DNA from: Acorus gramineus
Taxonomy: Eukaryota > Streptophyta > Magnoliopsida > Acorales > Acoraceae
Reading direction: 5' to 3'
Length of the DNA stretch: 64,000 bases
Assembly (NCBI GenBank): GCA_030737835.1
Contig: CM060855.1
Location: 9,522,128 to 9,586,127 of the forward strand
The notes beneath the pieces are model-generated. The model saw only the letters and a program-made list of their open reading frames with translations, ran no database searches and was not told the DNA's origin. Within the stretch, counting starts at the first letter, position 1. Each line of letters opens with the position of its first letter. The position numbers and the translations under genes are program-made. This document shows, in pieces, positions 10,216-46,679 of the stretch.

Positions 10216-10494
10216 TCAACTGATGACAATCCCCCAGAGCTCTCTCAAGTGCTTGATGAGGATCTTCATCTCAAACCTCCCTTCGATTGTATGGTTACCA
10301 TTGTTGTCCACCTGCCTCATCAGAAAGAAAGCCTTCCATCTTGGATTGCTCAGGCCGAGCCTTTGCAGCAACTCAGACAACTCGTGCATGTTAATGCGAC
10401 CGTCGCCATTGACGTCAACCTCTTTGAGGAGTGCCTTGAAACGCTTCATGGGTATGCGAGTGGTGTCTTTGGGCTTGTATGGTGGGATCACCAT
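10216..10494 (-). CDS. Small EF-hand protein, array member 0 (most diverged)
   Basis: A single exon of 92 residues. The start is the ATG at 10494; the frame stays open three codons further but without an ATG. Residues 27-38 (DVNGDGRINMHE) form a perfect EF-hand loop with D1, N3, D5, G6, I8 and E12. Residues 63-74 (DNNGNHTIEGRF) form a second loop with His at the Gly6 position and Phe at position 12, so it probably does not bind calcium. It shares the spacing LGL..PRWKAF and the C-terminus LWGIVIS with the other five members (HWGIVN) but lacks their poly-Pro leader. A TATAAAC motif at about 10567-10573 suits this start. No signal peptide or membrane segment is seen. Presumably a calcium sensor or adaptor; the target is unknown. 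Confidence 0.8.
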   Translation of the reverse strand: MVIPPYKPKDTTRIPMKRFKALLKEVDVNGDGRINMHELSELLQRLGLSNPRWKAFFLMRQVDNNGNHTIEGRFEMKILIKHLRELWGIVIS

Positions 10495-11075
10495 AGTGAA
10501 CAATAAGAGGACTAGTGAAGAAACTTGAGATGGATTATGCAGTGATGAGAGGGCCTTGGAGGTGTTTATAGTTTTATAGACCGGGCTTCATTGCCTTTAT
10601 TCCAATGTCAAAGTGAAGCACTGACACATTTCATGGAATAAGCTGTGCTCTTGTAGTGTTGTGGCTTTGCACTATAGTGCCTAGTTTGGCATAGCTAAGG
10701 ATCTGATCCCCCTATGCGCATATATGGTAACATTATTGCCTATAACTTATCCAAACCATGAAATTCATATTCATTTTGGGCTAATCTCTATTGCTTCTGA
10801 TTATTTATTTTGAATTGAAATCAAGAGTGTTCATACGATCCAAGTTACTTTCCAAACAATTGGCTTTTAATTATATCTAATACTCAACTTATGCACTTAA
10901 ATTGAAAGTATCACTAAGTGAAAGATAACAAAAATGGTGAGGCATAAAGACTGTTTAAAAAGTCATAAAATACTTTATTAATTTGCTATTAATGCACGTA
11001 AGATTTACAATTTTTTTTTCATGTTCATAATTTATGCCATCCAATAAAGTCTTGTTCTGTCGACAAAAACCTTAT

Positions 11076-11538
11076 GGCCTAGTTTGATAAAGGGATAAAT
11101 TTTTAGGATAAGTTAATCTAATTTATGAGGATAAAAAATCTACTATTTTTATCCAGATTTGCATTTGTTAATGCTTTTTATTATTCTTATTTTTTGTGTT
11201 CTTATCCTCAATCTTGCATTTGGATCAAATATGGGATAACTTCAAAATTTTTAAAAAAATTCCAAATCTATCTTTCCTATTAATTGGACATTAATGTTGT
11301 TTAGTGGAACACTTTTTTTTTTGAAAGATTAGTCATAAATGTTATCCTAATTTTACAAAATAAGGATAAAAAATTAGGACAAAGTCAGTTCTACCTTTTA
11401 CCCAGAACAAACTATCCCCATTTGTTTAGACAATTGTCCATGCTTTATCTCTTTTTTTTATGTCATATGGGATAACAAATGATTTAATCCAATTTTTTCC
11501 ATATCCCAACCTCTTATCTTCATGTCAAACTAGTCCTA
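11076..11538. repeat. MITE-like element, full copy (family F5)
   Basis: The ends are inverted: GGCCTAGTTTGAT on the left and GGACTAGTTTGAC as the reverse complement of the right. Both arms contain GGATAA/TTATCC words. It is about 460 bp and non-coding. A related right half begins the window at 1-247. No clear target duplication was found. Confidence 0.65.
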
Positions 11539-11539
11539 T

Positions 11540-12290
11540 CATAATAAGAAATATCTGAACACCCAAATGTTTTTGGACTTGGTCAAAATTAAGTATTGGG
11601 TGTCCATATAATTTTCTAATCTGTTCTTGTAGGACTTAATACAGTTCCGATTTAATGGAATTCGATGAACCGAATCTCACCGTCCAGTACCAGCTTGTAA
11701 AAGCAAGCTCTGAATTATTGAATCCAGAAGTTTATCTTAGAATAGAAACCAAAATAACATACTGTGATTTTAATCTTCAGAGCAATAATTTAGAAACTTT
11801 TGAAAAATAAAAAGAGAGAATCTTGGAACCTTTTTAGGCAGGTATCATGTGGGAGACCAGTTTCTCCACTGAGGTGGTTTATTCATCTGTTTTGGAAAAG
11901 CTTTAAAATGAAGCTTCTTGGAGAAGTATTGAAGAATCACTAGGCCATCGTCATCCAACATGGAATAAAGATGTACCAGCTTTGGATTATGAGCATATCT
12001 TGATCACACCGACCGATCTTATACACATTTACATAATTGATTGTTGCTTGCCTCCATGAATTTTCGTACACAATTTTTTTTTGTTATGACAAAATGCTGT
12101 TACTGATGATCAATCGAACTCTGTGATACTTGTGAATGCGTATACTTTTATCAGATAATAATACTGACATGACTTCTTATTTAGATACTCTCACATATAA
12201 TCTAAAAAACCATGTTTTGGTCAATACTAATTTCAAACTAAATTTACTTATTAGTCATAATACACTCTCACATATCCTCGGATGCCTTAT
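11540..12290. repeat. Conserved intergenic block of the EF-hand array, copy U0 (no gene attached)
   Basis: Shares, in order, words such as ACTTGGTCAA, GTTCTTGTAGGAC, CCGAATCT, CTGAATTATTGAA, GTTTCTCCACT and ATCTTGATCAC with blocks at about 21225, 25000, 28450, 32640, 37620, 39550 and 42310. In the later copies the block is followed on the right by a small EF-hand gene. Here it ends near 12290 and no gene follows. Confidence 0.7.
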
Positions 12291-12324
12291 CCGAGGGTAA
12301 TCTCGTTTCTACTTTGGGTATTTG

Positions 12325-12850
12325 CTTTAACCCCCCGTATTGCGTGAGAAATAAGTCAAGAATAAGAAAGAATATAGGAGAATAGTAAAAAAAAATTGTT
12401 TGTTTTGATAGAATAAACCCCGATAGTTATGTCTGGATAAGTAGGATAATGTCTGATAACTATTCTAAGGAAATGTTGTAATTGTTTATCAGGTATTATC
12501 TATGTCAGTGGATAAAAATACTCTTCTCTGTCATATTAAAAAATTTATCTTTTCTAACACTCTCACATAGATTTAAAAAACTGTCACATCTATCAAATCA
12601 ATCATACATTTCTCATACTATTCCCAGAGGGTATAATTGTCATTTAAAAAGTCATAAACTTTTATTCATCCCTTATCAACCATTTATCATCACTTTATCC
12701 AAGATGAACCAAACAACAAAAAAATCATTTTTACGTTTTTCAATGAGAATAACAGAAAATGCAACCAAATAAAAAATTTCTTATTTAGTTTGAATTGTTA
12801 TCTATCCTAGTATAGCTATCATGAGCGAATAACCCAATGTTACACCCTAC
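12325..12850. mobile_element. MITE family F1, near-complete, inverted
   Basis: It runs from CCCCCCGTATTGCGTGAG to GTTATTCGC...CCTACGG reversed, with the family words GATAGTTATGTCTGGATAAG and TAGTATAGCTATCATGAGCG near opposite ends. It is about 520 bp with no coding capacity. Orientation is opposite to the copy at 14885. Confidence 0.65.
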
Positions 12851-12911
12851 GGAAAATAGAATTTCATAGCATAATGCATATCATTTATCCAAAAAAATAA
12901 TAATAATAAAA

Positions 12912-13200
12912 AAATCCATAGAACCCCCTGTAAACTATCCGCATAACTTCTTGAATTTTTCCAAAGTCCATGTAACCAATGAAAATATCTATGTAAATCT
13001 AAATAATCTTCAAAATTAAATTCTCGTTGACAGATAAGAAATATTTTGTTCGGTTAATCTGGCATGGCTAAAAACATAGTATAACAAAACCCCCATACAA
13101 TGTGTTAAAATACAAAAAATCATCTGTAAATGATGATTTTAATCCTCTTGATAGGGTTATATAATATATTCAAAGGGGTTAAATCGTCATTTACTGAGGT
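12912..13200. repeat. Foldback MITE family F3, truncated copy
   Basis: It begins ATAGAACCCCCTGTAAACTA, then TTGACAGATAAGAA, and breaks off near 13200, where unrelated sequence begins. Confidence 0.6.
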
Positions 13201-13985
13201 CAATAATAAAGCTTGGACTAGATGCAAATATGTCAAGGAACAACTTCCCAACGTTCTTGTTGCAGAATGGGTAGCCGATGCATTTTTCAAGCGATAAAAT
13301 GAGATTTCCAAATAATTATGGAAAAATCGGTTAGTAGGAATTAAAGGCGCTCCGAACTTGGAATCGCGTGAAATTTTTACTGGAGCTAGATACCGAGGAA
13401 ATATTCAAAATTCTACAACGTAAGCTTATTTTTTCATTTTTTCTATTTTTAGGCCATCAAAATGGCGTTTTTGTTATTTTTAGTAACTTTTTACATTTTG
13501 AATATCTTTATCATAACAACTCTGACTTAATCTCTATCATGATCTCCTAGAATCTCATAGATTTAGTTACAACAAACTTACATTTTTACTATTTTTAATA
13601 ATATTTAATTAGTACAAAAGGGGAGACTAGTAATATAGGGTTGCCAACTTTTATTTAATATAATTTTGAGTTTTATTTCTCTTTTGAGAATTGTGAGTTT
13701 GTTTAAAGATCCCAATGTTTCTTGGATTTTTGCTTTACTTTTTCACTACGTTATTGCCTTTCAACAGCTTTATGGTTTTAATTTGTACAATACTCTTATG
13801 TTAGAATCAAGTGCTGATGAGGAAACGTTTAGTTCCACTCCAACTTATTTATTTCATCTATTGAGAATCACAACGGATTAGAATCTTAAGTGACAGCCAC
13901 GTAAACGGACACACCAAACGGACACACCACCACTAAGTGATGGATGCAACACATATTATGAAAAATTAATGGCATACACCATTTA
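13200..13985. other. Unassigned sequence with a short coding-like stretch
   Basis: At 13209-13298 a plus-strand frame reads AWTRCKYVKEQLPNVLVAEW and then VADAFFKR and a stop. It looks protein-like but has no start or partners, and I do not recognise it. It may be a captured exon fragment. The remaining 13300-13985 is AT-rich and resembles decayed repeat sequence. Confidence 0.3.
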
Positions 13986-14219
13986 GGTAGCATTTGGTAA
14001 CACGATTAAAAAATTGATTTTCTACAATAGTTAGATTTAAAACTGATTATTCAGGAAGTTGTCTTTCCCCAGCTTTCTCAAATAACAGCTTTTGAACACT
14101 ATTTACCTGAAATCTGTTTACAGGAAGCTGCAATTGTAAAACTGTTTGTTTGCACGATTGCAGAACCAGTTTTCTGCAATCGCAAAAGTTGCGCAATCGC
14201 GCAATCAAACGCAGCTGCC
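13986..14219. mobile_element. Tourist-like (PIF/Harbinger) MITE with TTA target duplication
   Basis: A 234-bp element flanked by TTA at 13983-13985 and 14220-14222. The ends are GGTAGCATTTGGT and, reversed, GGCAGCTGCGTTTGATT, the same apart from a TGC insertion and point differences. A TTA duplication and GG-starting ends are typical of Tourist elements. Confidence 0.7.
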
Positions 14220-14884
14220 TTAGTGTTTTTGAATAAATCAAACCTCAAATTCATCAAATGAAATGAACATTCAATCACAAGGTCGTATTCATTTGATGAA
14301 TATAGAGCCATCCGATTTAACAAAGTAAAAATAAACACAAATAAATGATCCAAATCTCATAACAAAAGGATATGGATATGATTTTATGAGCTGTCGCGGC
14401 ATGTCTCACACTTTTTTTTTATTATATTTTTGAAAAGTGGATGCTTGATTTAGATAGACCTCACAGATATCCTAGATTCAAAGACATCCTAGATGGTAAT
14501 CATGATATACACAAACATGATTATCTGTTTTAGATAAACCTCTCAGAAGCAGTAATGCTGTGAACATTGCATTTCATGTCAAACCAATCATGGGGCACCC
14601 TCAGAGACTGAATCAACTGGTAATCCCCAACTTCCCTAAATCCTATAAAACCATTGTATGCATATAACAATGTAAATATGAAAAAATGGCGTCCCAGTAG
14701 TGGAATAAAAGAAGAAGATCCTTATCATTCTTACATAGCATATTGAATCCACAAAGAAAAACATCAAAGCTTAAATCAGTTACTAAATCAAAAGGGTTGA
14801 TGACACTCCTTTTATAGTCAAGTCACATATAATAGAAACAAAAGATTAAATTTTTTAAACGTAGTATATAAGAAACTTAACCTC

Positions 14885-15412
14885 CTGTCTGGAGTGTGAT
14901 AGAATTACTCACCTCTGATAGTTATACCGGGATAAATAACAAATCTTGCAAAAATAAATAAATTTTTATTTGATTGTTTTTTCTGTTATTTTCATTGGAA
15001 AGCGTATAAAAATGACATTTTTGTTGTTTGATTCACCTTGTATAAAGTGAGTATAAGTGTGGATAAGAAATGAATAATGGACAACTATACCCCTGCATAA
15101 ATTGTTTGTGCTTGAGGATAAGTGTGAATGATGTATGTGTTATATAACAGATCTACATGACAATTTTTGGAATGCGTGTGAGATTGCTAGGTAATACAAA
15201 TTTTTAAAAAGACATAAAAAGATATTTTTATTCATTGACACAAATTAATCTTGATAAGCAATCTATCATTTTCTTAGAATAATTATCATGTTTTATTCTA
15301 GCTTATCTAGATATAACTATCAAGGTTTATTCTAATAAAATAAACAATCTTTTTTTTAACAATTTTCTGTATTCCTTCTTATTCCCTGCATATGTTCCAC
15401 CCCCAACCCTAC
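14885..15412. mobile_element. MITE family F1, near-complete copy
   Basis: The left end carries GGAGTGTGATAGAATTACTC and GATAGTTATACCGGGATAA. The right end carries TAGATATAACTATCAAGG and TATGTTCCACCCCCAACC. The internal layout matches the copy at 43908-44415. It is non-coding. Confidence 0.65.
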
Positions 15413-16506
15413 CGAGGAAAAAGACTCAAATTCATCTATTAAAAATTAAAAACATGCAACTATTACCCTATATAAAAATTTATAAAAAATATTAAATTAT
15501 TTTAAGCGATATAATATATATATATATATAAACTAACTTTTGAGGATCACATTGAAGAAAATAAAAATAGAGAGGTTCACAACTGGCCTTCGGACAATTT
15601 AATATATCTATACTGTGTGCATTCTAATGCACCACAATCCTGTCAAAATTCGCCCAACCAGCTATTCACATCCCACTGAACAAAACATTACGCCTCACCA
15701 TATACCTTTTTATACTGTGTGCACATCAAGACAAACAATATTGCGCATAGCCTATTATTGCTCGTATCGCATTCGACTATATATGTTTTCTGCATAATTT
15801 TTGTTTATAAAGAATCTTAAAACATGTCACTTCACTTTGTATATTAGGCAAATGTACATACTTTGAAGAACATGATGTGTACATATATTTTGAAGAACTT
15901 CGTCTAATCTTCTCGCATTCTGTAATTCAAAGTATGACTTCTACAGGTATACTTAAAAGAAAATTCGATTTTTCTTATCACAATTAACATTTATTCAAAA
16001 ATTAAAACATAATTATACTGCTCTTCAAACATGTATTATTCTCTCAGACTCAACAATGGAGGAAAAAGCACAAAAATGAAGAACAAGAACGTATCGTCAC
16101 TCCCACAGGCAGGAGACTTATGTGTAATAGCACCCTATACATTCTTATTGTAAAAGACTGTAGTTTTTCTATGACATTTTCATTATAATAGACTATACTT
16201 TTCAAAAGCTACTGTCTCCTCTGCTCCAGAAAAGTCACAGCTTACAGTTGGTTCTTTTGTTCATTAATCATGAGGCCCAAAATATATGTTATTTTTTTCT
16301 CTAGAAGATATACTTTCTACAATGATCTGATGACACATTTCATGACGGATTATATTCACTCGAATACATTAGTACATCCATTCAAATACATGAGTATGCG
16401 CATTTGCGCGTACAATTTAACTAGTAATATATAAATATGTGGGGGGCAACTAATGTCACCCCAGCAAGTCAATATCCCACCCCAAATAAAAATTAAAAAC
16501 AGAGCT
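15413..16506. other. Intergenic, no gene seen
   Basis: AT-rich with short simple repeats, e.g. (TA)n at about 15513-15530. Nothing coding or structured was recognised up to the left end of the Mutator-like element. Confidence 0.45.
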
Positions 16507-16520
16507 GGGGTTGCCCCACC

Positions 16521-16571
16521 CGGGTTCGGAACTCCTGTGATAATATCACAGGCTCACCCTGTGAACACCAA
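16521..16571 (+). repeat. Left terminal inverted repeat core of the MULE
   Basis: Begins CGGGTTCGGAACTCCTG and ends ACCCTGTGAACACCAA. Two G-boxes (CACGTG) follow just inside, at 16599-16604 and 16610-16615. Confidence 0.85.
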
Positions 16572-16791
16572 TGGAAAGGTGACAGCTGCCCACACCCTCA
16601 CGTGGACCTCACGTGGCATACTCACCAAAGTTCACATGCAATAAACGACGTTTCACACCGTCAAGTCACCACCGACTCTTTATCTTTGATCAAAACCGTT
16701 CATTTTCGCTTGATCACAACCGTCCATCGTCATCTTTTATTTTCAATATATCCAGTCTCTCTCCTCCCTCTCTTTATATTTGATTTTGTGT

Positions 16792-16882
16792 TCTGGATTT
16801 TGATGGATTTTTCTGGGGATTGATTTTTTGGATTTTGATGGATTTTTTGGGGATTGACTTTTTGGATTTTGATGGGTTTTTT
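16792..16882. repeat. Short tandem repeat, about 34-bp unit, 2.5 copies
   Basis: The unit includes GGATTTTGATGGATTTTT then GGGGATTGA. It lies just inside the left end of the MULE, after a C/T-rich stretch that looks like a leader or promoter; no reading frame follows. Confidence 0.75.
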
Positions 16883-17752
16883 TTTTTGTTAAAATTTTGA
16901 TCTTGATCGATTGGCCTGTTTTAATGGTCGATTGTAGTCCGTAACAAACATTGAATGATTTGCTATTTTTTTTATTCGGATTTGGATCAAGAAATTGTGG
17001 TATGTTCGTCTGAATAATTGTTCTATTTGATACGGAGATTGGGGTTTTATGAGCTAACTGTGCTTGTTAGCACCTAGTTCAAGCTGCATTGCTGTAAAAT
17101 CTAGCTCATAATTTAGTAGATTTCTGATGAGGCTGCTGGTATAATAAGCATTCTTAACAATTTCAGTTCTCTTTCTTTTTATGTTGATATGAATGTGATG
17201 TTTTTTAACATCTGTTTTTCAATGTTTTTTAGCATAGCTGTTTGCATTGCAGGTAAATGAAAGTGCTAAAATATCCCAAATCAAAAGCCTCACCTAGTGC
17301 TAAAATAAATTTTAAGGAAAGTTATTTCATAACAGAATGACAACAAGTCTTGTTTCCGCAATTTAACAATGTAAATATGCATGGGATTTTAATTAAACTT
17401 CTTGTCTTTACATTATTAGCATATAGGCATTCAACAATTACCCATTGATCACATCTAATCAAATGAAGAAAATTTCAACTTCGTAGGAAGATAGTTGATG
17501 CACAATAATACTACAAAACAGAGAATAAGTATAGTTATACAGGTAAAAAAAAAATCAAACAAGCTGCACAGAAGCTTACATCAATATGGGTTGAATTTTT
17601 CATACAACGAATGAATTGTCCTACAGCAGCTATGAACCTCAACAAATAATGATACCCAGCAATAATTTAACACACAGACAACAATAATCACCAAAAGAAA
17701 ATCATTACAGAGATATAAATACAACCAAACCTGTACAACAACCAAAATTATA

Positions 17753-17915: not shown

Positions 17916-17976
17916 AATTAAATAAAACCCAAAAAACCAAAACATTCTTCATTATAAGCATAGAACTGTGATCTGC

Positions 17977-20321
17977 TCAGTAATCTGTATTCCTCCTCCA
18001 TTCTTCAGATAAATTTTGAGAAGATTGACTCATTTGAGTAGGATAAAAAAGAGATTCTTGTGCCTGTGATACAAATTCATATATTAATGCGCCATTTAAT
18101 AAATATTTCTAAAAGTATTAAGGGATATGAAATATACCTGAAGCAATTGAGTCATTGAATGCATTCCTTCACTATTATCATAGTTCCCAACCATTGGCTG
18201 AAATAATGGAACACTGTGACTCGCAATATGGGGTTCATGTTGAGTTTGGGAGCTTTGACCTCGTGATCTCCTTTCCATCCCGCCGATCCATCTTTTTTGG
18301 GGTTTCCCTCCCACAGTCTTCTTTCCTCTTCTTTTAAAGCCTTTGGCGACCTCGTTGTTACTAGGATCCTCTCCCTCATCATCTTGCACGTTATCATCTT
18401 CAAATGTTGTAGAAGATTTTCTCAAGTCTTCCTCAACCTCCCTCATCATCTCATTTGTGCGGCGTTTTACAAGATTTGTTGAATGGTGTGTTTCAGCCGC
18501 CTTTGATGCCACTTGAATGAGACCATGACTTAATTCTTGAAAGCGTCTTCCCAATTCAGATATAGGATCAACCTGTACTGAAGAAGAACATGAATCAAGC
18601 ACAACGCCAGATTTTGCATCTCTGGTCCACCTCTTCAAGATATATAGTTGTGGAAGCTCCTTGATGTTTCTGTGGTCAAGCACTTTTAAAACATGACAAC
18701 ATTGGATACCCATAAATTCAAATTTTTTACAGCTACAAGTGACCATATCAGTAGAGAGATTATAAAAAACGGTCCTCTCACTACCACGATATCTGTGAAC
18801 TTTGTACTGTATCATATGTCCCACCTCCCCATGAATGTAGATAGAACAACTAAGAGATTTTCCATACTCTGCTTGAAAAAACAACTCAAGGATCTCTGGC
18901 GTGTAAACTGATGCGACACATGACACCATCGGAGCATGAAATGGAATTACGGGGATCGTATCCATCATCTTGAAATCAGCATTCAATTCACTTTCACGTC
19001 GGTCATCCATAACCCTATCAAAATGCTGAAAGAAACGCAATGGATCGTGCTTTGAGTTCAAATAGCGTCTCAGAAGAGCATTCAAACTTTCACTACGTTG
19101 TGTACTCTTCATGTCTGCACAGAATGTATCCCTCCCATACACTAGAGCCCATTTCTCCTTTTCAGCAAAAGTTTGTTGTAGCCATTTATTACCTTCAAGA
19201 TTGTATTTTTCAAGCATCACTTTCCAAGCATCTAAGAACTCATCCTCCGTCTCATACCCATAAATACAAGCATAGAAGTCATCTCTAAAACCTTCAGTAG
19301 CATAAAGATGTCCAAGATGTTTTGTTGCATTTTGAGTCAAGTGCCAAATACAGAGCCGATGACGAGTATCTGGTAGAACAATTGAAATAGCTTTGGCCAT
19401 CGCCGCTGACTGATCTGTTAGAATAGTCTTCGGACGTCTTCCAGACATTGCTTCAAGAAAAGTTTCAAACAACCAAATAAATGAGTCAGCCGTCTCATCA
19501 TAAAGTAATGCACCACCAAAAATAATTGTTTGCCTATGATTATTAACCCCAACGAATGGTGCAAATGGTCTTCCATGATTATTTGTACGATAGGTTGTAT
19601 CAAAGCAAACAACATCTCCATAATGTGCATAATCGACAATAGACCTAGCATCGGCCCAAAACACATTGGTTATTTGTTCATCGGTATCAAGTTGCATTGA
19701 GTGAAAGAAAGAAGGATTCTGCTTTTGCTTATTCTTAAAATACTGAATAAGAGCACCCGCAATTCCATTCTCCATTCTTGTTTCTCTTTTGGTGCGGAGG
19801 TAAGATTTCACATCATTTAAAACAAAGCCAAGATTCCTTCTACCTCCAACTTGTCCACTCATCAAATCTATAACTGTCTTCGGTGCTAAACCCGAACCAT
19901 CTATGATATCAACCTGAGCAGCTTGAGCTTTTCCAATTTTTCTATGTGACCTCAAATTATGGCGCAAGGGGGTTGGAACAAGATCATGATTGTGGTTTTC
20001 TTCAAATTACCTGACAAGATACGAACCAGAAGATTGATAAATGATAACCATACGTGCCTCACATCCTGTTCTTGTCTCGGGCTGTGGCTGCAAAGCTTTT
20101 CGTTTATCAACCCCTTTGAACCCTTCTTTAGAACAACAGAATTTTCGCTTACGTAGTATGCCATTGGACTTATGTGCATCACTTCTTCGAATGCTAAATC
20201 CAACTGATCTTGCATATGTGTTGTAGAATTGATAGGCACTATCTTCAGAATCGAATGCCATACCAATTTCAGGCATACAATTATAACTACATTCTTCAAC
20301 AAACTCATTGTCTCCTTCCAT
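17977..20321 (-). pseudogene. FAR1/FRS-type MULE transposase with one in-frame stop
   Basis: Exon 1 is 20321-18138 and exon 2 is 18063-17977, separated by a 74-nt GT-AG intron, for about 755 codons. A strong acceptor (TTTTTTTTTAACAG) at about 20350 implies a 5' UTR intron. From the N-terminus: a FAR1 DNA-binding domain (about 22-115) with its Cys/His ligands (FCC, GCEAR, FEENHNHDL); the MULE DDE domain with VVCFDTTYRTNNHGRPFAPF, TILTDQSAAMAKAI and CIWHLTQN; a SWIM zinc finger (TCSCKKFEFMGIQCCH); and an acidic/basic C-terminal tail. Codon 105 (20009-20007) is TAA between YLVR and FEENHNHDL, where relatives have Lys. The frame continues uninterrupted for 650 codons. Terminal inverted repeats favour a transposon over a domesticated FRS gene. 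One substitution from intact, it looks recently inactivated; an assembly error or a polymorphism is possible. Confidence 0.88.
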
Positions 20322-21044
20322 GTTAATAAAATATTCAGCTAAGATCCAATCTGTTAAAAAAAAAACAGGCATGGATAAAAAATAAAATCAAAATATAAAA
20401 AAATCCTTATAATCCAACATTATAGAAAACCTTACAAGCACTTTAAAATCTAGCCAAGCAAACTCTTAACTGATGCATTATAAAATAAAAACAAATTTGT
20501 TAAAAAAAATAAAACATTTAGGATAAATAACTTCTACAGACAAAATAACAAAGGCAAACCCTTGAATTTTATTTTTTACAAACTCTTCAAGAAACAACCC
20601 AACAAAACTTAGAAACCCATTTTTGAAGGAAAAAAACCCTAAGTAATTCAACAAAACAATATATGAATCAAAGTCCTACATAAGCAAAATTTCATCAAGA
20701 CTATGTTAAAAAAATTATACAAACCCTTAAAAAGGGATCGCCGGTGGAAGGAGGCTGACAATGGTGGTTGATTCAACGTGGGAACCAGCGGTGGAGGGAG
20801 ACGGTGTGGTAGAGGGGATTGACAATGGTGGCTAGGGTTTTCACAAAACACAAAACTGAGAACCACTTTAAAAAAAAAAAAGAAAACAAAGAGGGTCACG
20901 AGAACAAATGGGCTGCCTTAACAGAGTTTCTTCACACCCGTTTCTTCACGGCTTTTCACGCCAACAAAGAGGCTGACGGCGTCACATGGCAGGCATCTCA
21001 CATGCCACTCACGTGGATCCCACCATCCACGTGCTTGATTTTGG

Positions 21045-22537: not shown

Positions 22538-22828
22538 TCAGCTGTCTCTGACAAGTCCCAGCTTCTTCGCATAATCGATGAGCTTGTCGACCTCCTCCTT
22601 GCCTTCAATATAATGATTATGGTCGAGGTCGGCCCATGCCATGGCACACCCCGCCTTCAAGCGGGTGAAGTGAAGGCCGAGGACATGCAGAGCCTTTCTG
22701 AACTCTCTCTTGCTGATCTTTCCATCGTCGTTCATGTCTATGTCACTTAGCCAATTCTGAAACTGCTTCTCTGTCATTGGGAGAGGAGGGGGAGGAGGAT
22801 AGTAACCCATCATATGCATAGATTTCAT
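22538..22828 (-). CDS. Small EF-hand protein, array member 1
   Basis: A single exon of 96 residues starting MKSMHMMGYYPPPPPLPMTE. The frame is open upstream to 22867 but without an ATG, so 22828 is the start. Loop 1 (31-42, DMNDDGKISKRE) is canonical. Loop 2 (67-78, DLDHNHYIEGKE) keeps D1, D3, N5, I8 and E12 but has His at the Gly6 position. A linker LGLHFTRLKAG joins them. The C-terminus (KKLGLVRDS) differs from the HWGIVN of its sisters. A TATA-like ATATAAG lies about 75 nt upstream and a G-box about 125 nt upstream. It is a soluble, probably cytosolic or nuclear calcium-binding protein; I recognise the fold but no named family or partner. Confidence 0.82.
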   Translation of the reverse strand: MKSMHMMGYYPPPPPLPMTEKQFQNWLSDIDMNDDGKISKREFRKALHVLGLHFTRLKAGCAMAWADLDHNHYIEGKEEVDKLIDYAKKLGLVRDS

Positions 22829-26467: not shown

Positions 26468-26743
26468 CTAATTGACAATCCCCCAGCGATTCTTCGCGTA
26501 CGCGATGAGCTTCTGTAACTCCTCATCACCATCGATATAACGATTATGGTTGAGGTCACCGTGCAACATGCCACGCCCCGCCTTCCAGTGGGTGAAGTGA
26601 AGGCCGAGGTCATGCAGAGCCTTATGTAGCTCTTCCTTGCTGATCATTCCATCATGGTTGGTGTCTATGTCATTGAGCCACTGCATAAACTGCTGCTCAG
26701 TCATTGGGAGAGGAGGGGGAGGGGGGATATGCAGAGGTTTCAT
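26468..26743 (-). CDS. Small EF-hand protein, array member 2
   Basis: A single exon of 91 residues starting MKPLHIPPPPPLPMTEQQ. An in-frame ATG at 26806 would add 21 residues. It lies only about 12 nt from the TATA-like GATATAAG at about 26818, so transcripts probably begin after it, and the internal ATG aligns with the starts of members 1, 3 and 5. Loop 1 (27-38, DTNHDGMISKEE) is canonical. Loop 2 (63-74, DLNHNRYIDGDE) keeps the terminal Glu but has Arg in place of Gly6. It ends NRWGIVN. No introns, signal peptide or membrane segment. Function beyond probable calcium sensing is unknown. Confidence 0.84.
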   Translation of the reverse strand: MKPLHIPPPPPLPMTEQQFMQWLNDIDTNHDGMISKEELHKALHDLGLHFTHWKAGRGMLHGDLNHNRYIDGDEELQKLIAYAKNRWGIVN

Positions 26744-26862
26744 TGCAGGGAAATGAAATATTGAGTGGTGAATATGAGAGTTGATGGATGTAGAACTGGT
26801 TGGCATGCATACTTATATCAGCAGTGCAACAGAATCAAAGGTGTCCATGGAGGGCCCAACTT

Positions 26863-28030: not shown

Positions 28031-29839
28031 ATACCCATGTTTGGATACATAATAAGATTTATTTTGGGATATACAATTATACCAGCATAAGTGGATATAA
28101 TAAGTGATTTTGTGTTTGGTTGTTTTTTAAATTATTTTTATTAGAAAACATAATAATAAAATTTTTATTATTTGAATAAAATGTGAGATAAAAATTTATA
28201 AAAAGTAAAAAAATGATGATAGTTGATTTTGACAGAGGATGTATAAAAGGGGATGATAATCGATTTGATAGTGAATCCACATTCTTTGGGTGGAATAATG
28301 TGTAATAACTTTAATTCCAATGGTTTAGTAAAATCCATATACCAATTTTTACTGATACATGTTATCTCAGAGTATTCACTGCAGTTGAACACTAAAAAAA
28401 AATTATTCTGTTTTATTTCAATTTATCCCGTGGGGTTCGTTTTTGTAGACTCGGTCAAAATAATGATCTTTTAATTATATGTTCTTGTGGGACCCATACA
28501 ATTCTTTTTGAATGGAAACCATACAATTCTTTTTGAATGGAAACCGAATATAACCATCCCACATGGCCACCCGTCCCATATCCGATGCACGACATCCATG
28601 GAATAAAGTTGCTTGCAGAGAGTAGAAACCCTGAATTATTGAACCCAGAAAGCATATCTTGATTAAAATCCAAACAAAACAACAATGACCAAAATAGTCT
28701 CTGTTTATTTGTTATACTCTGATTTTAATCTTCAAATCATTAATGTAGAACCTCCAGGTATAATTGATTGAGGTTTAATTTTGTGATGAGGAAGCACAGT
28801 TTTCTCTATTATATTTGTGTGGTTATATCAACCTTTTTTGGAAATCCTTTCAAGTGAAGCTTTTTGGTGAAGTATTGAAAAATCACTTGTCCATCCATTG
28901 TGGAATAAAGAGGCACCAACTTTGGATCATGAACATATATATCTTGATCACTGTTTAATTGTTGTTGGTCTCCATTGAATTGTTCTTATAAGTTGTAACT
29001 GATGATCAATTGAACTTGTCATGGATGGTGATACTAGTGAACACCTATACTTGCATCAGATAATAACACATATAATTTCTTAGATTTTCTCACACACACA
29101 CACACACAACCTAAGGTCCTAAATAGTCATGTTTTGGTAATTAATTACTGCATTTCATTTTCATACTAAATTTACATATCAGTCTTAATAGATGCACACC
29201 CTCGCGGACTGATTCCAACAATTATATTGGGATTTCTCAGCGATCTTAAATCCTATTAATCTTCAATAAGATTTATTAAAATATAACAATATATATACAA
29301 CACTTCAGTCTTTTTTTTAGCAGCGTTTGTGATAAACTTCTATATTTTTTTTTGACATGTAATTAACTTCTATTTGTTGAAATGTGTTTTTGATATTCAA
29401 CATCTGTTTAGATTGGATGATTCATCACATTCTTTATAATTTAAAAACTCACAACTCACACTCTCACACTAATGCTCAGAATATATCTATATAAAAAACA
29501 ATTTAATTATGTACTACATCGTATCTTTTTATCATACTTATCATGCATGTATTATATACAAATGCACACTTATAAATCATCATACATGAATTTTGACACA
29601 ACGATCCCTATCAAATAATACTGTAAATAAACGAAACGATACCCATAATAACGGTTCTTATTACTGTTATTATGATTACATAGAACCACTTTCAGATTTC
29701 AAGTACATATATATATAATTAAAAGCACCACATAACAAGAACACCGGGCTCTCCCTTACACACAACAAGCTTGAAAGAGGAGGAAAGTTTTATATATATA
29801 TATGTAAAACAGGTTCATTAGATCATGATCAGCTGCTAA

Positions 29840-30109
29840 TTAATTGACAATCCCCCAGTGATTCTTGGCGCGTGCGATGAGCTTCTCGAACTCCTTATCG
29901 CCATCGATATAACGATTATGGTTGAGGTCACCGCGCGCCATGGCACGTCCCGCCCTCCAGCGGGTGAAGTGAAGGCCGAGGTCATGCAGAGCCTTACGGA
30001 GCTCTTCCTTGCTGATCATTCCATCATGGTTGGTGTCTATGTCATTGAGCCACTTCTGAAACTGCTTCTCAGTCATTGGGAGAGGAGGAGGAGGGGGAGG
30101 GGAATACAT
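29840..30109 (-). CDS. Small EF-hand protein, array member 3
   Basis: A single exon of 89 residues starting MYSPPPPPPLPMTEKQ. Loop 1 (25-36, DTNHDGMISKEE) is canonical. Loop 2 (61-72, DLNHNRYIDGDK) has Arg at position 6 and Lys at position 12, so calcium binding there is doubtful. It ends KNHWGIVN. It is closest to member 5 (40914). An upstream ATG at about 30176, equivalent to the long start of member 2, is out of frame here because of a 4-nt ATTA insertion. This supports the downstream ATG as the family's true start. TATA-like CATATAAG is at about 30179-30186 and CACATG replaces the G-box at 30230-30235. Confidence 0.84.
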   Translation of the reverse strand: MYSPPPPPPLPMTEKQFQKWLNDIDTNHDGMISKEELRKALHDLGLHFTRWRAGRAMARGDLNHNRYIDGDKEFEKLIARAKNHWGIVN

Positions 30110-30243
30110 GGCAGGGAAAACAAGTATTGAGGAATCAATATGAGACTTGATGGAAGTAGAACTGGTTAATTGGCATGCTTATATGGTCAGTGCATGAGAA
30201 TCAAAGGTGTCCATGGTGGGGCCAACTTACACATGCTTTTCGG

Positions 30244-31950: not shown

Positions 31951-32010
31951 ATCTGATCCACGACATCCACGGAACGGATTAAAATTTTAACAGTTAAGAA
32001 ATATGAATTA

Positions 32011-32630: not shown

Positions 32631-32639
32631 GTGATTTTA

Positions 32640-33545: not shown

Positions 33546-33714
33546 ATTAGGCTATGTTTATCACATGAGTGTTGATACACTCACTCCGTTTTATAGCCTA
33601 CAACCTCATATACTACGATAACATTGTACATAGTATGTAGAATTCTTTCACAGTGTATGATCCAAAAAAATTTCATTTTTTTTTTTTTAAAATGTTGTTG
33701 TATATCAGTGTATA

Positions 33715-34778
33715 CAGGGGCGGATCCAAGACACTTTTTCCTGGTGGGCTGAATTAATCTTTTTATAAAAAAAATTTCTCTTCATAAAAATATCAAATTT
33801 TTTTTTTTATAGTCAAATGATGCACTTGAAATAAAATAAATTCATCAAAAGACTAAGTAAAACAAAACAAGTTCATTAATATAAAAGCTAATAATCAAAT
33901 ACTATATTAAAAAAAAAAGATACTAAGTAAAGAAATTCATAATCAAAGTTCGGTCAAGAGTAACTCAGAGAAATAAAAAAAATTATATAATAAAACATTA
34001 TTGAAGTTGAGCCCTGCGGTGTTTTAGAGAGTAAAAATCATTTATTATCGAGTCAGAATCAATAATTTAAGCAAATTCTCTAGTTATTTTCTTTCTTTCT
34101 TTTAGTGAAATATAATCCTCCACTTAAAATCTATCTAAAATTATAACATACATAAAAAGATATTCCAAAAAAAAATCACAAATACAAACTCAGTTTAAAA
34201 AGTTTTGATTTAGTTTTCTTATTAGACACCGAGATAATCAAGAATAATTCCTCATTTATTTGAAATAAAATAAATGTCAATAAAACATAAAAGCTAACAA
34301 AAAATTCTCATTGATTCTTACCACTGCACACCCTGATTTTATATACGGTATATTATTTGACACCAATCAATCTTTCACCAAAAGAACTCAAAATCACACC
34401 AACAAATATTGTCAAAATATAAACTATCTAAATGCATCTACAAAACATATAATAAATCAAAAGAATTAAAGAAAATTTATAAATAAAATCAAATTCATAC
34501 ATACTGTTCGGTGTTGGTGAAAGGGGTAATTTATTCATTGACGGCTGGCCGCCTACAAAATATGCTTAAAAAAAAGATGCTCAATTAAGTTAGTTGAAGT
34601 TTATATAAGAAGTTGTTTTGGGATTTTTCTAAGAAAACTGGATTGGACCAGTGTTTTGGGGGTTTTTGAACAAAATATGGGTTGGATTTTTTTTCTAAAA
34701 AACTGAACTTGACTGCTATTTGGGGATTTTTTTTACAAAATCTACAGCCCGGCCCAGCCAACTCATAGGCCCGCCCTG
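33715..34778. mobile_element. hAT-like non-autonomous element, about 1.06 kb
   Basis: The left end is CAGGGGCGGATCC and the right end reversed is CAGGGCGGGCC. Flanks AGTGTATA (33707-33714) and ATTGTATA (34779-34786) form an 8-bp duplication with one mismatch. Internal sequence is AT-rich with no reading frame. The target lies inside a dispersed repeat that begins near 33545. Confidence 0.75.
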
Positions 34779-34786
34779 ATTGTATA

Positions 34787-35750
34787 TTTCATTTCATATA
34801 ACAACATTTAATTCAATGGAAGAGTATACAATTTTTTATAAAAATAAAACTAGCGTAAACTATAATTGGGGCTATATAAATAGCTGGACAGATCATTTTC
34901 CTTATCACATTTTTCATAATTTTAGAAGCAAGTTGTCTACACACAACGTAAAAGAGTTAGCATGTAAGGTTCAAAGCTAAACAATATTTTAACTATCTCC
35001 ATTCTTTTATCATATGAGCATCTTAGCCTGCCAACGGATAATCATATTCTTATCCGAAATGAATATATGAAAAAATATATAGATCTTTTACATCACAATT
35101 CATTTAAAGGTGGTGTAATTAAAGATTTGAGGGGGCACAAATAGAACCACTCTTATTTGGAATATCTGAGAAATCTAAATAACTGCGGATACGGTTTAAA
35201 TATCTGCTATCCGAAAATAAAAATCATATATTCAATATTTGAAATATGTAAAAAAAATTAATAATTACTTACTATAAAACATGAAATTATAAGTATTCAC
35301 ACAATACTTACATAATTTATGTAAGAAAAAAAAAACACATGTTAATCCTAAAAATATAAATTTATCATTATAATAAATTATAATATAATAATGTTTAAAA
35401 TACAGATATTTTATGGATATAATGTATCTGATCTAAAATATTTTGTATACAAATATTTTATTTGGGATTCGGATACTGATTTTCAGATATCAAATAATTT
35501 TTAAAATTTTCAAATACAAGTCTAATTAAATCGGATATGAATATTTTTTTTGATAATCGGCAATTTCAATTTACACATATAGGATGAAAAAACCTAATAA
35601 ATCGATCGAACAACGCGGATAAGCGATACCCCAAGATAATAAAAACTATTCCCATATATATAGAAACACTTTCAGGTTTCAAAGTACTACTACATGAACT
35701 CCAATCAACAAAACTGAGAAGAGGAGATCAATCTACGTAAAAAGAAAAAC
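34787..35750. other. Intergenic; probable decayed repeat of GGATAC type
   Basis: 35165-35570 holds many variants of GGATA/TATCC words (GCGGATACGG, GATTCGGATACTGATTTTCA) in near-inverted arrangement. This kind of repeat is common at plant non-autonomous transposons. No gene is seen. Confidence 0.35.
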
Positions 35751-35760
35751 AGGTTAGTCA

Positions 35761-36048
35761 TCAGTGAGGATGACGATGACTATGACGATGATGACGAGTC
35801 TCCCAGTGCTTCTTCGCGTACTCGAAGAGCACGTCGAACTCCTTATCGCCATCGATGTAATGGTTGTGGTTGCGGTCGGCGCGTGCCATGGCACGCCAGA
35901 CCTTCAAGTGGGTGAGGTGCAGGCCGAGGTCATGCAGTGCCTTCCGGAGCTCTTCCTTGCTTACCTTCCCATCCTTGTTGGTGTCTATGCTGTCGAGCCA
36001 GCACTTCAAGGACTGCTCGTCCTCCATGGAACTAGAAGGGGCAAGCAT
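35761..36048 (-). CDS. Small EF-hand protein, array member 4, His-rich tail
   Basis: A single exon of 95 residues starting MLAPSSSMEDEQSLKCW. The open frame extends upstream to 36078 without an ATG. The poly-Pro leader of its sisters is replaced by LAPSSS. Loop 1 (22-33, DTNKDGKVSKEE) is canonical. Loop 2 (58-69, DRNHNHYIDGDK) has His at position 6 and Lys at position 12. The C-terminus replaces HWGIVN with HWETRHHRHSHRHPH, a His-rich tail that could bind zinc, nickel or copper. TATA-like CATATAAATT lies about 55-64 nt upstream, and the usual G-box region is not evident. It is the most altered member after member 0. Confidence 0.82.
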   Translation of the reverse strand: MLAPSSSMEDEQSLKCWLDSIDTNKDGKVSKEELRKALHDLGLHLTHLKVWRAMARADRNHNHYIDGDKEFDVLFEYAKKHWETRHHRHSHRHPH

Positions 36049-36249
36049 ATATGAAGAAAAAACAGTTGTGCAGGTCACCTTAATTGAGACTATTTGAACT
36101 TAATTTATATGGTGATGAGCTTCGTTACTTGTATATGATTCGATGGAAGAGAGAATCAAATGAGTGGGATCCGACGGGGACGAACATTTTTTTTTTTTTT
36201 TTTTTTTTGGGTGTTGGTTCCAACCATTGGTTGTTCTTTTGGACAGAAA

Positions 36250-36560
36250 ATTAAATTATTATGAGGATAATGAGACTATTCTAGTATAATTAAAGATAAA
36301 GTAATTTTTTTGTTCGGTTTATTTTTTGAATTATTCTCGTTGGAAAGCATAATAATAAAGTTTTGTTGTTTAGATAAAATGTGAATAAAGTGATGATAAA
36401 AATTCATAAAAAGTAAATAAATGATGACAATTGATTTCACAGTTGATTTATAAGGGGTGATGATGATTAATTTGAGAGTGGGCCCGTATATTATTTTGGG
36501 TTGAATAACCTGGAATAACTTAATTCTAAGAGTTGACTTAATTCTAGGTGAATGAAAATT
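36250..36560. repeat. MITE family F2 copy
   Basis: Shares TTTGAATTATTCTC, GCATAATAATAAAGTTTT and AAAATGTGAATAAAGT with the elements at 28036, 37193 and 39119. It lies upstream of member 4, outside the duplicated segments. Confidence 0.55.
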
Positions 36561-36867
36561 AGGGATGGTAGGAGTAGCCCACATTTATGTAGATGAGGAG
36601 ATTCTGACCATCATTGAGTAGCTAGGGGAATGTTACCGCGGGTTAGAATTGATATCTTACCATCTCCACCTTTGTTCTCTTTGTTTTGGATGGGAGGGGA
36701 TGAGGGTCATCCATCTCCCCAATTTTTGTTGTTTTTCTATCTCTTCCTTTCTTCTCATCTCTTTTTGTGACCACACTCTTCTGTTTTCATTTTTAATTAG
36801 AACAAATATGTAAACAAGCTCCTTTAAAAAAAAATCAAAATTAATAATAATTATAAGAAGGGTTTTT

Positions 36868-37120
36868 TATTTTTAAGACCCTATAAATTACATGATTTAG
36901 TGATCGATCCTTCACTTCTTCATATTTTGGTTTAAGTCCTCACTTTTAAACAATATGTTCATTTTAGTCCCTCACAGGGACTAAAAAAATCAAATAATTT
37001 AGGGATAGATCCCTCACAGGGACTAATAAAAAACGTACTCTTTAAATATAGGGACTTAAACTGAAATATGAAGAAGTGAGTGATCGATTACTAATTCATA
37101 TAGTTTACAAGGACTAAAAA
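36868..37120. mobile_element. Foldback element X, first copy
   Basis: About 250 bp whose arms pair over about 75 bp: left TTTTTAAGACCCTATAAATT... with right, reversed, TTTTTAGTCCTTGTAAACTA..., sharing CACTTCTTCATATTT and GTTTAAGTCC. The centre has two copies of the palindrome-like TCCCTCACAGGGACTAA. No coding capacity. Confidence 0.8.
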
Positions 37121-38795
37121 CATTTTCTCCCACGTAGATCTTGACGTCAAAAAAACTTTCTTTGAAAACTTATCAATATTATAACACCTCAGCCCATGTT
37201 TGAATATATAATAAGATTTATTTTGGGATATATAATTATACCAGCATAAGTGAATATAATAAGTGATTTTGTGTTTGGTTGTTTTTTGAATTATTCTCAT
37301 TAGGAAACGTAATAATAAAATTTTTATTATTTTGATAAAATGTGAATAAAGTATGGATAAAAATTTATAAAAAGTGAAAAAATGATGATAGTTGATTTTG
37401 ACATGGGATGTATAAAAGGGGATGACAATCAATTTGATAGTGAATCCATATTCTTTGAGTGGAATAACCTAGAATAACTTTAATTCCAATAATTTGCTAG
37501 AATTCATATATCAGTTTATATTGATACATGTTATCTCATGTATTCAATGCAGTCAAACACTAAAAAAAATTTATTCTTTTTTATTTCAAGTTATTCGGTC
37601 GGGTTCGTTTTTTAGACTCGGTCAAAATAATGATCTTTTAATTATATGTTCTTGTGGGACCCATACAATTCTGTTTGAATGGAAACCGAATATAACCATC
37701 CCACATGGCCACCCGTCCCATATCCGATGCACGACATCCATGGAATAAAGTTGCTTGCAGAGAGTAGAAACCCTGAATTATTGAACCCAGAAAGCATATC
37801 TTGATTAAAATCCAAACAAAACAACAATGACCAAAATAGTCTCTGTTTATTTGTTATACTCTGATTTTAATCTTCAAATCATTAATGTAGAACCTCCAGG
37901 TATAATTGATTGAGGTTTAATTTTGTGATGAGGAAGCACAGTTTTCTCTATTATATTTGTGTGGTTATATCAACCTTTTTTGGAAATCCTTTCAAGTGAA
38001 GCTTTTTGGTGAAGTTTTGAAAAATCACTTGTCCATCCATTGTGGAATAAAGAGGCACCAACTTTGGATCATGAACATGTATATCTTGATCACTGTTTAA
38101 TTGTTGTTGGTCTCCATTGAATTGTTCTTATAAGTTGTAACTGATGATCGATTGAACTTGTCATGGATGGTGATACTAGTGAACACCTATACTTGCATCA
38201 GATAATAACACATATAATTTCTTAGATTTTCTCACACACACACACACACACACACACAACCTAAGGTCCTAAATAGTCATGTTTTGGTAATTAATTACTG
38301 CATTTCATTTTCATACTAAATTTACATATCAGTCTTAATAGATGCACACCCTCGCGGACTGATTCCAACAATTATATTGGGATTTCTCAGCGATCTTAAA
38401 TCCTATTAATCTTCAATAAGATTTATTAAAATATAACAATATATATACAATACTTCAGTCTTTTTTTTAGTGTTTGTGATAAACTTGTATATTTTTTTTT
38501 GACATGTAATTAACTTCTATTTGTTGAAATGTGTGTTTTGGTATCCAATATCTGTTTAATTTGGATGACTCATCACATTCTTTATAATTTAAAAAATCAC
38601 AGCCCACACTCTAATATAAAAAACAATTTAATTATGTACTACATCTTTATCTTATTATCATATTTATCATGCATGTATTATATACAAATGCACATTTACA
38701 AATCACCATCCATGAACTTTGACACAACGATCCCTATCAAACAATACTGTAAACAAACTAAACGATACCCATAATAACGGTTCTTATTACTGTTA
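36868..38795. repeat. 1928-bp tandem duplication, unit 1 (unit 2 starts at 38796)
   Basis: Corresponding words recur at a constant offset: TGATCGATCC at 36901 and 38829, TTGACGTCAA at 37141 and 39069. Unit 1 comprises foldback X, an F2 MITE and the intergenic block (37190-38795). It ends at ACTGTTATTAT, about 150 bp before where an EF-hand gene would begin, and there joins the next foldback X. It is therefore a gene-less unit. Confidence 0.9.
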
Positions 38796-39048
38796 TTATT
38801 TTAAGACCCTATAAATTACATGATTTAGTGATCGATCCTTCACTTCTTCATATTTTGGTTTAAGTCCTCACTTTTAAACAATATGTTCATTTTAGTCCCT
38901 CACAGGGACTAAAAAAATCAAATAATTTAGGGATAGATCCCTCACAGGGACTAATAAAAAACGTACTCTTTAAATATAGGGACTTAAACTGAAATATGAA
39001 GAAGTGAGTGATCGATTACTAATTCATATAGTTTACAAGGACTAAAAA
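38796..39048. mobile_element. Foldback element X, second copy
   Basis: Almost identical to 36868-37120 and followed by the same sequence. It was copied by the tandem duplication and not by a separate insertion. It marks the junction with unit 1. Confidence 0.85.
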
Positions 39049-40913
39049 CATTTTCTCTCACATAAATCTTGACGTCAAAAAAACTTTCCTTGAAAACTTA
39101 TCAATATTATAACACCTAAGCCCATATTTAGATACATAATAAGATTTATTCTGAGATATACAATTATACCAGCATAAGTGGATATAATAAGTGATTTTGT
39201 GTTTGATTGTTTTTTAAATTATTCTCATTAGGAAACATAATAATAAAATTTTTATTATTTAGATAAAATATGAATCAAGTGTGGATAAAAATTTATAAAA
39301 AGTGAAAAAAATGATGATAGTTGATTTTGACATGGGATGTATAAAAGGGGATGACAATCAATTTGATAGTGAATCCACATTCTTTTGATGGAATAACCTA
39401 GAATAACTTTAATTCCAATAATTTGCTAGAATTCATATATCAGTTTATATTGATACATGTTATCTCATGTATTCAATGCAGTCAAACACTAAAAAAAATT
39501 TATTCTTTTTTATTTCAAGTTATTCGGTCGGGTTCGTTTTTTAGACTCGGTCAAAATAATGATCTTTTAATTATATGTTCTTGTGGAACCCATACAATTC
39601 TTTTTTAATGAAATCCAATGAACCGAATATAACCGTCCCACATGGCCACCCGGCCCGTATCCGATGCACGACATCCATGGAATAAAGTTGCATGCAGAGA
39701 GTAGAAACCCTGAATTATTGAACCCAGAAAGCATATCTTGATTATAATCCAAACAAAACAACAATGACCAAAATAGTCTCTGTTTATTTGTTATACTCTA
39801 ATTTTAATCTTCAAATCATTAATGTAGAACCTCCAGGTATAATTGATTGAGGTTTAATTTTGTGATGAGGAAGCACAGTTTTCTCTATTATATTTGTGTG
39901 GTTATATCAACCTCTTTTGGAAATCCTTTCAAGTGAAGCTTTTTGGTGAAGTATTGAAAAATCACTTGTCCATCCATTGTGGAATAAAGAGGCACCAACT
40001 TTGGATCACATGAACATGTATATCTTGATCACTGTTTAATTGTTGTTGGTCTCCATTGAATTGTTCTTATAAGTTGTAACTGATGATCGATTGAACTTGT
40101 CATGGATGGTGATACTAGTGAACACCTATACTTGCATCAGATAATAACACATATAATTTCTTAGATTTTCTCACACACACACACAACCTAAGGTCCTAAA
40201 TAGTCATGTTTTGGTAATTAATTACTGCATTTCATTTTCATACTAAATTTACATATCAGTCTTAATAGATGCACACCCTCGCGGACTGATTCCAACAATT
40301 ATATTGGGATTTCTCAGCGATCTTAAATCCTATTAATCTTCAATAAGATTTATTAAAATATAACAATATATATACAATACTTCAGTATTTTTTTTAGTGT
40401 TTGTAATAAACTTCTATATTTTTTTTTGACATGTAATTAACTTCTATTTGTTGAAATGTGTTTTTGATATTCAACATCTGTTTAGATTGGATGATTCATC
40501 ACATTCTTTATAATTTAAAAACTCACAGCTCACACTCTCACACTAATGCTCATAATATATCTATATAAAAAACAATTTAATTATGTACTACATCGTATCC
40601 TTTTATCATACTTATCATGCATGTATTATATACAAATACACACTTATAAATCATCATACATGAATTTTGACACAACGATCCCTATCAAATAATACTGTAA
40701 ATAAATGAAATGATACCCATAATAACGGTTCTTATTACTGTTATTATGATTACATAGAACCACTTTCAGATTTCAAGTATATATATATATAATTAAAAGC
40801 ACCACATAACAAGAACACCGGGCTCTCCCCTACACACAACAAGCTTGAAAGAGGAGGAAAGTTTTATATATATATATGTAAAACAGGTTCATTAGATCAT
40901 GATCAGCTGCTAA

Positions 40914-41189
40914 TTAATTGACAATCCCCCAGTGATTCTTGGCGAATGCGATGAGCTTCTCGAACTCCTTATCGCCATCGATAAAATGATTATGGTTGAG
41001 GTCACCGCGCGCCATGGCACGTCCCGCCCTCCAGCGGGTGAAGTGAAGGCCGAGGTCATGCAGAGCCTTACGGAGCTCTTTTTTGCTGATCATTCCATCA
41101 TGGTTGGTGTCTATGTCATTGAGCCACTTCAGAAACTGCTCCTCAGTCATTGGGAGAGGAGGAGGAGGGGGAGGGGGAGGGGATATCAT
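40914..41189 (-). CDS. Small EF-hand protein, array member 5
   Basis: A single exon of 91 residues starting MISPPPPPPPPLPMTEEQF. An upstream in-frame ATG at 41237 would add 16 residues, but it sits only a few nt from the TATA-like CATATAAG at about 41241-41248, so I chose the family-consistent ATG. Loop 1 (27-38, DTNHDGMISKKE) is canonical. Loop 2 (63-74, DLNHNHFIDGDK) has His at position 6 and Lys at position 12. It ends KNHWGIVN and is nearly identical to member 3. Its 5' region carries a partial duplication of the leader-coding segment plus TATA, so two promoters may exist. Confidence 0.84.
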   Translation of the reverse strand: MISPPPPPPPPLPMTEEQFLKWLNDIDTNHDGMISKKELRKALHDLGLHFTRWRAGRAMARGDLNHNHFIDGDKEFEKLIAFAKNHWGIVN

Positions 41190-46676: not shown

Positions 46677-46679
46677 TGA

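Follow-up and report, generated by a model that had tools for sequence, protein, structure and literature searches.

We propose that six small genes on the minus strand of an Acorus gramineus contig, together with their relatives elsewhere in the genome, form an unnamed family of miniature Ca2+ sensor relays whose first binding site is strong and whose second is remodelled and probably weaker, a reading to which we give a probability of about 0.6. The window, that is, the whole stretch of DNA analysed, comprises 64,000 nucleotides of contig CM060855.1 (here C9:9522128-9586127) in a genome of 398.6 Mb and 137 contigs. The six genes, G1 to G6 (Table 1), are intact open frames of 89-96 codons, all inside positions 10216-41189, in the number, size range, strand and places that an earlier note on this DNA had given them. 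All 15 gene pairs match at 1e-9 or better by tblastn inside the window (best 7.6e-47, G4/G6), so the similarity of the six genes lies far above chance. We regard as real that these genes belong to a distinct mini-sensor family, constrained as a whole and carrying a loop variant.

The family extends beyond the window. A seventh copy, G0, lies about 11.2 kb past the window on the same contig and strand, and a second array occupies contig C108, with four intact genes (H1, H2, H3 and H5) and one broken gene (H4). The earlier note's local array of six is indeed a tandem expansion, but one of seven genes on C9 and accompanied by the array on C108. A search of the genome with G4 (E of 0.01 or below) gave 15 matches, seven on C9, four on C108 and four elsewhere, and a search with H5 gave 39, comprising 11 family members and 28 others. 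Open frames were read at 30 of the 39 H5 matches, 10 belonging to the family and 20 being calmodulin-, CML- or polcalcin-like, with some frames counted twice; the remaining nine are G5, six adjoining frames already covered, C6:2665440 and C1:3805621. By these two single-protein searches, with C6:2665440 and C1:3805621 outside the frame inspection, the family is located at C9 and C108 only. Its 11 intact proteins are 89-101 residues long, each with one EF-hand pair. A scan of bacterial contigs produced at least three loci, two with 29% identity across 67 residues and a third matching over just 17, which were rejected as relatives because they are, among the matches listed, generic EF-hands; the scan of viral contigs for relatives found no locus.

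In these proteins a short leader, often rich in Pro, precedes one EF-hand pair, and a short tail follows it. Pfam EF-hand models match all six window proteins; in five of them one or more models exceed the curated cut-off, and for G2 every model falls short. The G3 sequence searched began at residue 2 and the G6 sequence at residue 4. Pfam detects no domain besides the EF-hand in the six. On the leader and tail the earlier note needs correction: the Pro run is clear in G2, G3, G4 and G6, weak in G1 and absent from G5, and the WGIV ending, alone or followed by up to two residues, closes G1, G3, G4 and G6 but not G2 or G5. The genes are intronless as judged from their open frames alone. Mechanical open reading frames from upstream ATGs are longer for G3 (26468-26806, 112 residues) and G6 (40914-41237, 107 residues); the shorter frames are the likely starts because of the conserved leader and the aligned upstream sequence.

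The two loops of the pair differ. Loop 1 is canonical in G1-G6 and H3, and its positions 1, 3, 5 and 12 carry Asp, Asn or Glu, as expected, in all 11 intact members. G0 and H5 have a 12-residue loop 2; in the remaining nine members it is 13 residues long, the extra residue sitting between position 9 and the closing Glu. In loop 2, D1, N/D3, N/D5, I8 and the closing E are retained throughout. SPARC, an extracellular protein, has a 13-residue EF loop with a one-residue insertion and still binds Ca2+ there; the mini family is alike in having such an insertion, its position set aside. The EF-hand pair fold itself is predicted. An AlphaFold model of G4 (predicted local distance difference test, pLDDT, 78.4; predicted template modelling score, pTM, 0.64) contains two helix-loop-helix units with strands at residues 31-33 and 67-69. 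The top ten Protein Data Bank (PDB) matches of this model in Foldseek are all EF-hand proteins (best E 5.4e-3, none at 0.001 or better), and calmodulins rank best when a profile of the 11 members is compared with the PDB. Pfam matches, loop 1 ligands and the model agree on the paired helix-loop-helix with a 12-residue acidic loop that marks the EF-hand superfamily.

From this design we infer how the proteins might work. Ca2+ would most likely be bound at the canonical site 1, and site 2, remodelled by insertion in nine of the 11, may bind Ca2+ weakly or act mainly as a structural partner. Once site 1 is filled, the pair would open and present a hydrophobic face to a target protein. That face is possibly gated by the C-terminal helix and the WGIV that ends it, and a second partner could bind to the Pro leader. 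Alternatively, the proteins could be Ca2+ buffers that damp Ca2+ signals without relaying them to a target. Their small size, their several copies and the lack of any extra Pfam domain in the six window proteins would suit such a role, and calbindin D9k is a buffer of similar size with a single EF-hand pair. However, only one canonical loop is present in nine of the 11 members, which would make for poor buffer design, and Ca2+ buffers are usually acidic, whereas the isoelectric point is 6.96-10.08 in 10 of the 11 intact members and 6.20 in G3. We find a buffering role very doubtful and favour a sensor relay.

The descent of the family was reconstructed in two trees, over 85-87 alignment columns. 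The first held 41 rows, 11 from the family and 30 others. The outside rows drew on 15 of 20 non-family loci, L033, L035, L040, L047 and L048 having been dropped as duplicates or near-duplicates, and KIC was the only plant sequence from outside this genome in the comparison. The second tree, of 35 rows, left out CaM_L042_N, both L032 rows, KIC, L050_N and L038_N; the two CaM_L042 rows overlap in the 41-row tree because the open frame is partial. In both trees the 11 intact proteins form one clade (support 100/99), as the earlier note's proposal of a distinct EF-hand clade anticipated. The clade stands apart from this genome's polcalcin, CML-lobe and calmodulin rows in both trees and from KIC in the 41-row tree, where 14 of this genome's CML/calmodulin loci also have their lobes outside it. 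Among the loci considered for these trees, C7:3044254 and C114:100666 (L034 and L035) gave identical match scores and carry the same reading frame, one on a low-numbered and the other on a high-numbered contig, which suggests that C114 duplicates part of C7, perhaps as another haplotype.

It is improbable, in our judgement, that these genes are ordinary polcalcin, two-EF-hand CML or KIC/PBP1 members misplaced by a short alignment, but the trees leave that idea some ground. The deep branches are weak because the alignment has just 85-87 columns, KIC is the sole comparison from beyond this genome, and in the approximately unbiased (AU) test on the 41-row tree neither a forced joint clade with polcalcin (p-AU 0.144) nor one with KIC (p-AU 0.221) is rejected. 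The copies lie outside the CML, polcalcin and KIC rows of these trees, although the two joint clades are not rejected; a place inside a CML or KIC-type clade is what the earlier note had named as refuting its proposal. Set against this are the single clade of 11 members recovered at 100/99 among 30 and 24 other rows, and the affinities of the polcalcin row, which lies outside the family in both trees and joins two CML N-lobe rows instead (96/92 with 41 rows, 94/93 with 35). The KIC row, on a long branch, groups with the C-lobe of a CML.

The features of the known groups also differ from those of the mini family. Polcalcins are pollen proteins with two EF-hands; a frame at C1:7202317 (L030), which we take to be polcalcin-like, is likewise under 100 residues, with a single EF-hand pair in one open frame. 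Both its loops are canonical and of 12 residues, whereas loop 2 has 13 residues in nine of the 11 family members, only G0 and H5 having two 12-residue loops. The mini family further differs from it in a leader that is often rich in Pro, a linker in which W and K/R are usual, and an often WGIV-type tail. In proteins of the KIC/PBP1/CCD1 type the working loop comes second. KIC (KCBP-interacting Ca2+-binding protein, PDB 3h4s chain E) is a plant Ca2+ sensor, also small, in which one EF-hand of a pair is good. Its good loop is the second, DLDGDGALNQTE, whereas in G1-G6 and H3 the canonical loop is the first, and at 135 residues KIC is longer than the mini family. Two lobes with as many as four EF-hands are usual in CMLs; the family shares their EF-hand pair fold, with G5 33% identical over 63 residues to a CML at 46110-46697, but all 11 members have one pair. 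That CML, a single-frame gene on the minus strand with four EF-hand loops, adjoins the array. Under the loose definition given in a passage of PMC5983762, by which a CML needs an overall identity of 16% or more to canonical calmodulin, short two-EF-hand proteins could be filed as CML.

Two animal proteins invite comparison only in how they work. The abstract of PMC5156911 describes EFhd2 (swiprosin-1) as having a disordered leader, a PxxP motif, two EF-hands, a ligand-mimic helix and an extra C-terminal coiled coil. This cytoskeletal protein resembles the mini family in its leader and two EF-hands and differs in its coiled coil, and shared descent is evidenced at the EF-hand only. The other, AIF-1, gave a below-cut-off Pfam match to G1.

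Short EF-hand proteins resembling G0 and H5 are probably annotated, unnamed, in other angiosperms. Among the matches listed from the open-licence literature searched, the architecture has no description, which fits the earlier note's suggestion of a poorly described group. Nor do passages of PMC5443154, PMC5983762, PMC1797041 and PMC5291997 describe it, and strings from G0 and H5 found no match in that literature. A six-letter EF-loop string in a passage of the plant paper PMC4144799 belongs to a CBL motif and was set aside as no part of the mini family.

Constraint on the family was measured with one-ratio codon models on assumed trees, in which synonymous change between sub-types is near saturation and gene conversion lies outside the model. 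The ratio of non-synonymous to synonymous rates (omega, dN/dS) is 0.28 over 11 genes, with twice the log-likelihood difference (2dlnL) from omega = 1 at 93. For the nine members with a 13-residue loop the overall value is 0.34; by region, loop 2 gives 0.34, the sequence outside the loops 0.37 and loop 1 0.24, which bears out the purifying selection on loop 1 that the earlier note had expected. The six window genes give 0.45-0.48 on three trees (2dlnL 11.4-13.0). That note's other expectation, of dN/dS away from 1, holds for the family as a whole but not for G3, G4 and G6, as set out below.

Several observations weigh against a working sensor family. The youngest copies, G3, G4 and G6, have an omega of 0.91, indistinguishable from 1 (2dlnL 0.05). 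G4 and G6 differ by 9.5 non-synonymous against 1.5 synonymous changes, and their coding bins are 95-98% alike when the next 1.2 kb of 3' flank is 96-100% alike; on these three grounds the youngest copies may be drifting. H4 was detected by local tblastn alone and is broken by frame changes and stops, and in H1 and H2 loop 1 has no Gly at its position 6. The G4 model was built on six sequences, with the four lower-ranked models at pLDDT 58-66. Upstream of the genes, the 100 bp of G5 and G1 are 39% and 46% alike to those of G4, that is, not alike.

Some of these points would suit a dying expansion, in which the function rests with one or two conserved members (of the G0/H5 or G1/H3 type), G2-G6 being drifting copies multiplied by recombination between flanking repeats. 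The weak signal in G2-G6 (omega 0.615, 2dlnL just 3.99), the near-neutral youngest trio, a G4/G6 coding sequence no closer than its 3' flank and the loss of H4 all speak for it, as do copies of the 3' flank that contain no gene and a fragment of a leader 5' of G6, which look like untidy recombination. Yet open frames and loop ligands are kept in all of G0-G6, omega falls to 0.385 (2dlnL 27) when H1 and H2 are added to G2-G6 to make seven genes, and G2, G3, G4 and G6 resemble one another in the sequence just upstream (the 100 bp directly upstream of G4 is 79-91% alike to the other three). Between G3 and G4, similarity is 86-91% in the coding bins and lower in 10 of the 13 100-bp bins of 3' flank that they share. 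We think a dying expansion unlikely, though it deserves to be taken seriously, and retain the sensor family as our preferred reading. All six window genes have a TATA-like box 55-84 bp 5' of the ATG, and they are presumably expressed.

The two arrays appear to have a common origin. Read in the direction of transcription, C9 runs G6-G2, G1, G0 and C108 runs H1-H2, H3-H4, H5, in the same sub-type order, which we take to mean that one ancestral array was copied whole and that each copy then expanded separately. G1 is 32-41% identical to the other five window genes, and its nearest relative is H3 on C108 (99/99 in an earlier tree, 100/99 with 41 rows, 98/99 with 35); H1 and H2 pair at 97/98, and G2-G6 group at 95/80 (41 rows) and 88/70 (35 rows). 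A C9-only clade of seven is rejected on the 35-row tree (p-AU 6.5e-5, in a test picked after the 41-row tree had been viewed), and the sub-types are therefore older than the split of the two arrays. Synonymous divergence (dS) is graded, from 0.62 for G1/H3 through 0.38 for G2/G4 and 0.17 for G3/G4 to 0.03 for G4/G6, which fits stepwise growth, probably by tandem duplication of a gene with its flanks.

What else the two loci have in common is limited. Comparison of 94 kb of C9 with 60 kb of C108 gave 82 matches between open frames of at least 40 codons, 46 of them EF-hand to EF-hand; the other 36, all short, none longer than 64 residues and several present in multiple copies, we take to be repeats. 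No further common gene was found in the spans compared, at a frame size that genes with short exons could escape. A lipin gene on C108 has its sole other match, through its first 119 residues, on C8 and not C9. With only EF-hand and repeat-like matches and the lipin match on C8, the two loci are not shown to be homeologues from a whole-genome duplication. It is unlikely that C108 is an allele of C9, because of the dS of 0.62 between G1 and H3; C108 is possibly a foreign contig.

The nine members with a 13-residue loop 2 form a clade that is starred in the 41-row tree (97/94) and weaker in the 35-row tree (75/81), so that a single origin of the insertion is weakly supported in the latter. The insertion column, filled in 9 of 41 and 9 of 35 rows and thus under the 30% at which columns were kept, should not have entered the trees. 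We tentatively suggest, at rather less than even odds, that one insertion rebuilt loop 2 once and was retained through duplication, giving a clade of asymmetric switches, strong at one site and remodelled at the other, that vary in leader and tail, with each array keeping a 12-residue outlier as a natural control.

The duplicated blocks and flanks (Table 1) record how the C9 array grew. Neither tandem unit of the 3' flank contains a gene, and the second adjoins G6. The leader fragment lies between TATA-like boxes at -138 and -55 of G6, its end overlapping the second, and we read it from its sequence as a probable scar of recombination between copies.

Table 1. Coordinates of the mini EF-hand genes, the G4 loops and the duplicated segments in the window
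Feature	Position	Strand	Description
G1	10216..10494	-	92 aa; divergent sub-type; from open reading frame, tblastn and tree grouping with H3
G2	22538..22828	-	96 aa; Pro leader; tail without W
G3	26468..26743	-	91 aa; 112 aa if upstream ATG used
G4	29840..30109	-	89 aa; structure modelled
G5	35761..36048	-	95 aa; without Pro run; His-rich tail replaces WGIV
G6	40914..41189	-	91 aa; recent duplicate partner of G4, dS 0.028
G4 loop 1, DTNHDGMISKEE	30002..30037	-	residues 25-36; canonical 12-residue EF loop; in pattern match 29999-30037
G4 loop 2, DLNHNRYIDGDKE	29891..29929	-	residues 61-73; 13 residues, one-residue insertion; from alignment; model strand 67-69
Duplicated block, G4 and about 1.8 kb of 3' flank	28034..30151	-	94.2% to 39121-41231 over 2137 columns
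Duplicated block, G6 and about 1.8 kb of 3' flank	39121..41231	-	partner of G4 block
Tandem duplication of 3' flank	36871..40747		units 36871-38799 and 38799-40747, 94.3%; DNA self-comparison and tblastn
250-bp imperfect palindrome, start of first tandem unit	36871..37120		74% to own reverse complement
Second copy of 250-bp palindrome, start of second tandem unit	38799..39048		100% identical to 36871-37120
Duplicated-leader fragment upstream of G6	41240..41290	-	16-codon open reading frame resembling gene start; ends TAA

Other features of the window stand beside the array. On the minus strand, 18096-20372 holds a gene encoding MULE transposase and SWIM zinc-finger domains, presumably FAR1/FRS-like, with an in-frame stop near 20007 that marks either a pseudogene or a splice site. 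An open frame on the plus strand at 57391-57975 matches Tic22 (PF04278) in the N-terminal part of the family profile, at positions 1-101 of 244. A repeat family of about 400-500 bp, 72-91% alike and in both orientations (12329-12847, 14917-15400, 43915-44434 and 52376-52754), is probably a mobile element, and an inverted pair of about 700 bp, 87% alike, lies near the window ends (337-1043 and 62459-63160). Third-position GC is 0.59-0.88 in the 11 intact family genes, and 2-kb bins of the window have 29-42% GC.

This is a local gene expansion and reveals no new kind of system. The array illustrates how a small sensor family may grow by recombination between flanks. At about 90 residues, its proteins are easy to make and titrate. 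If the insertion retunes Ca2+ affinity, ordinary and remodelled forms of one sensor would stand side by side in a single genome.

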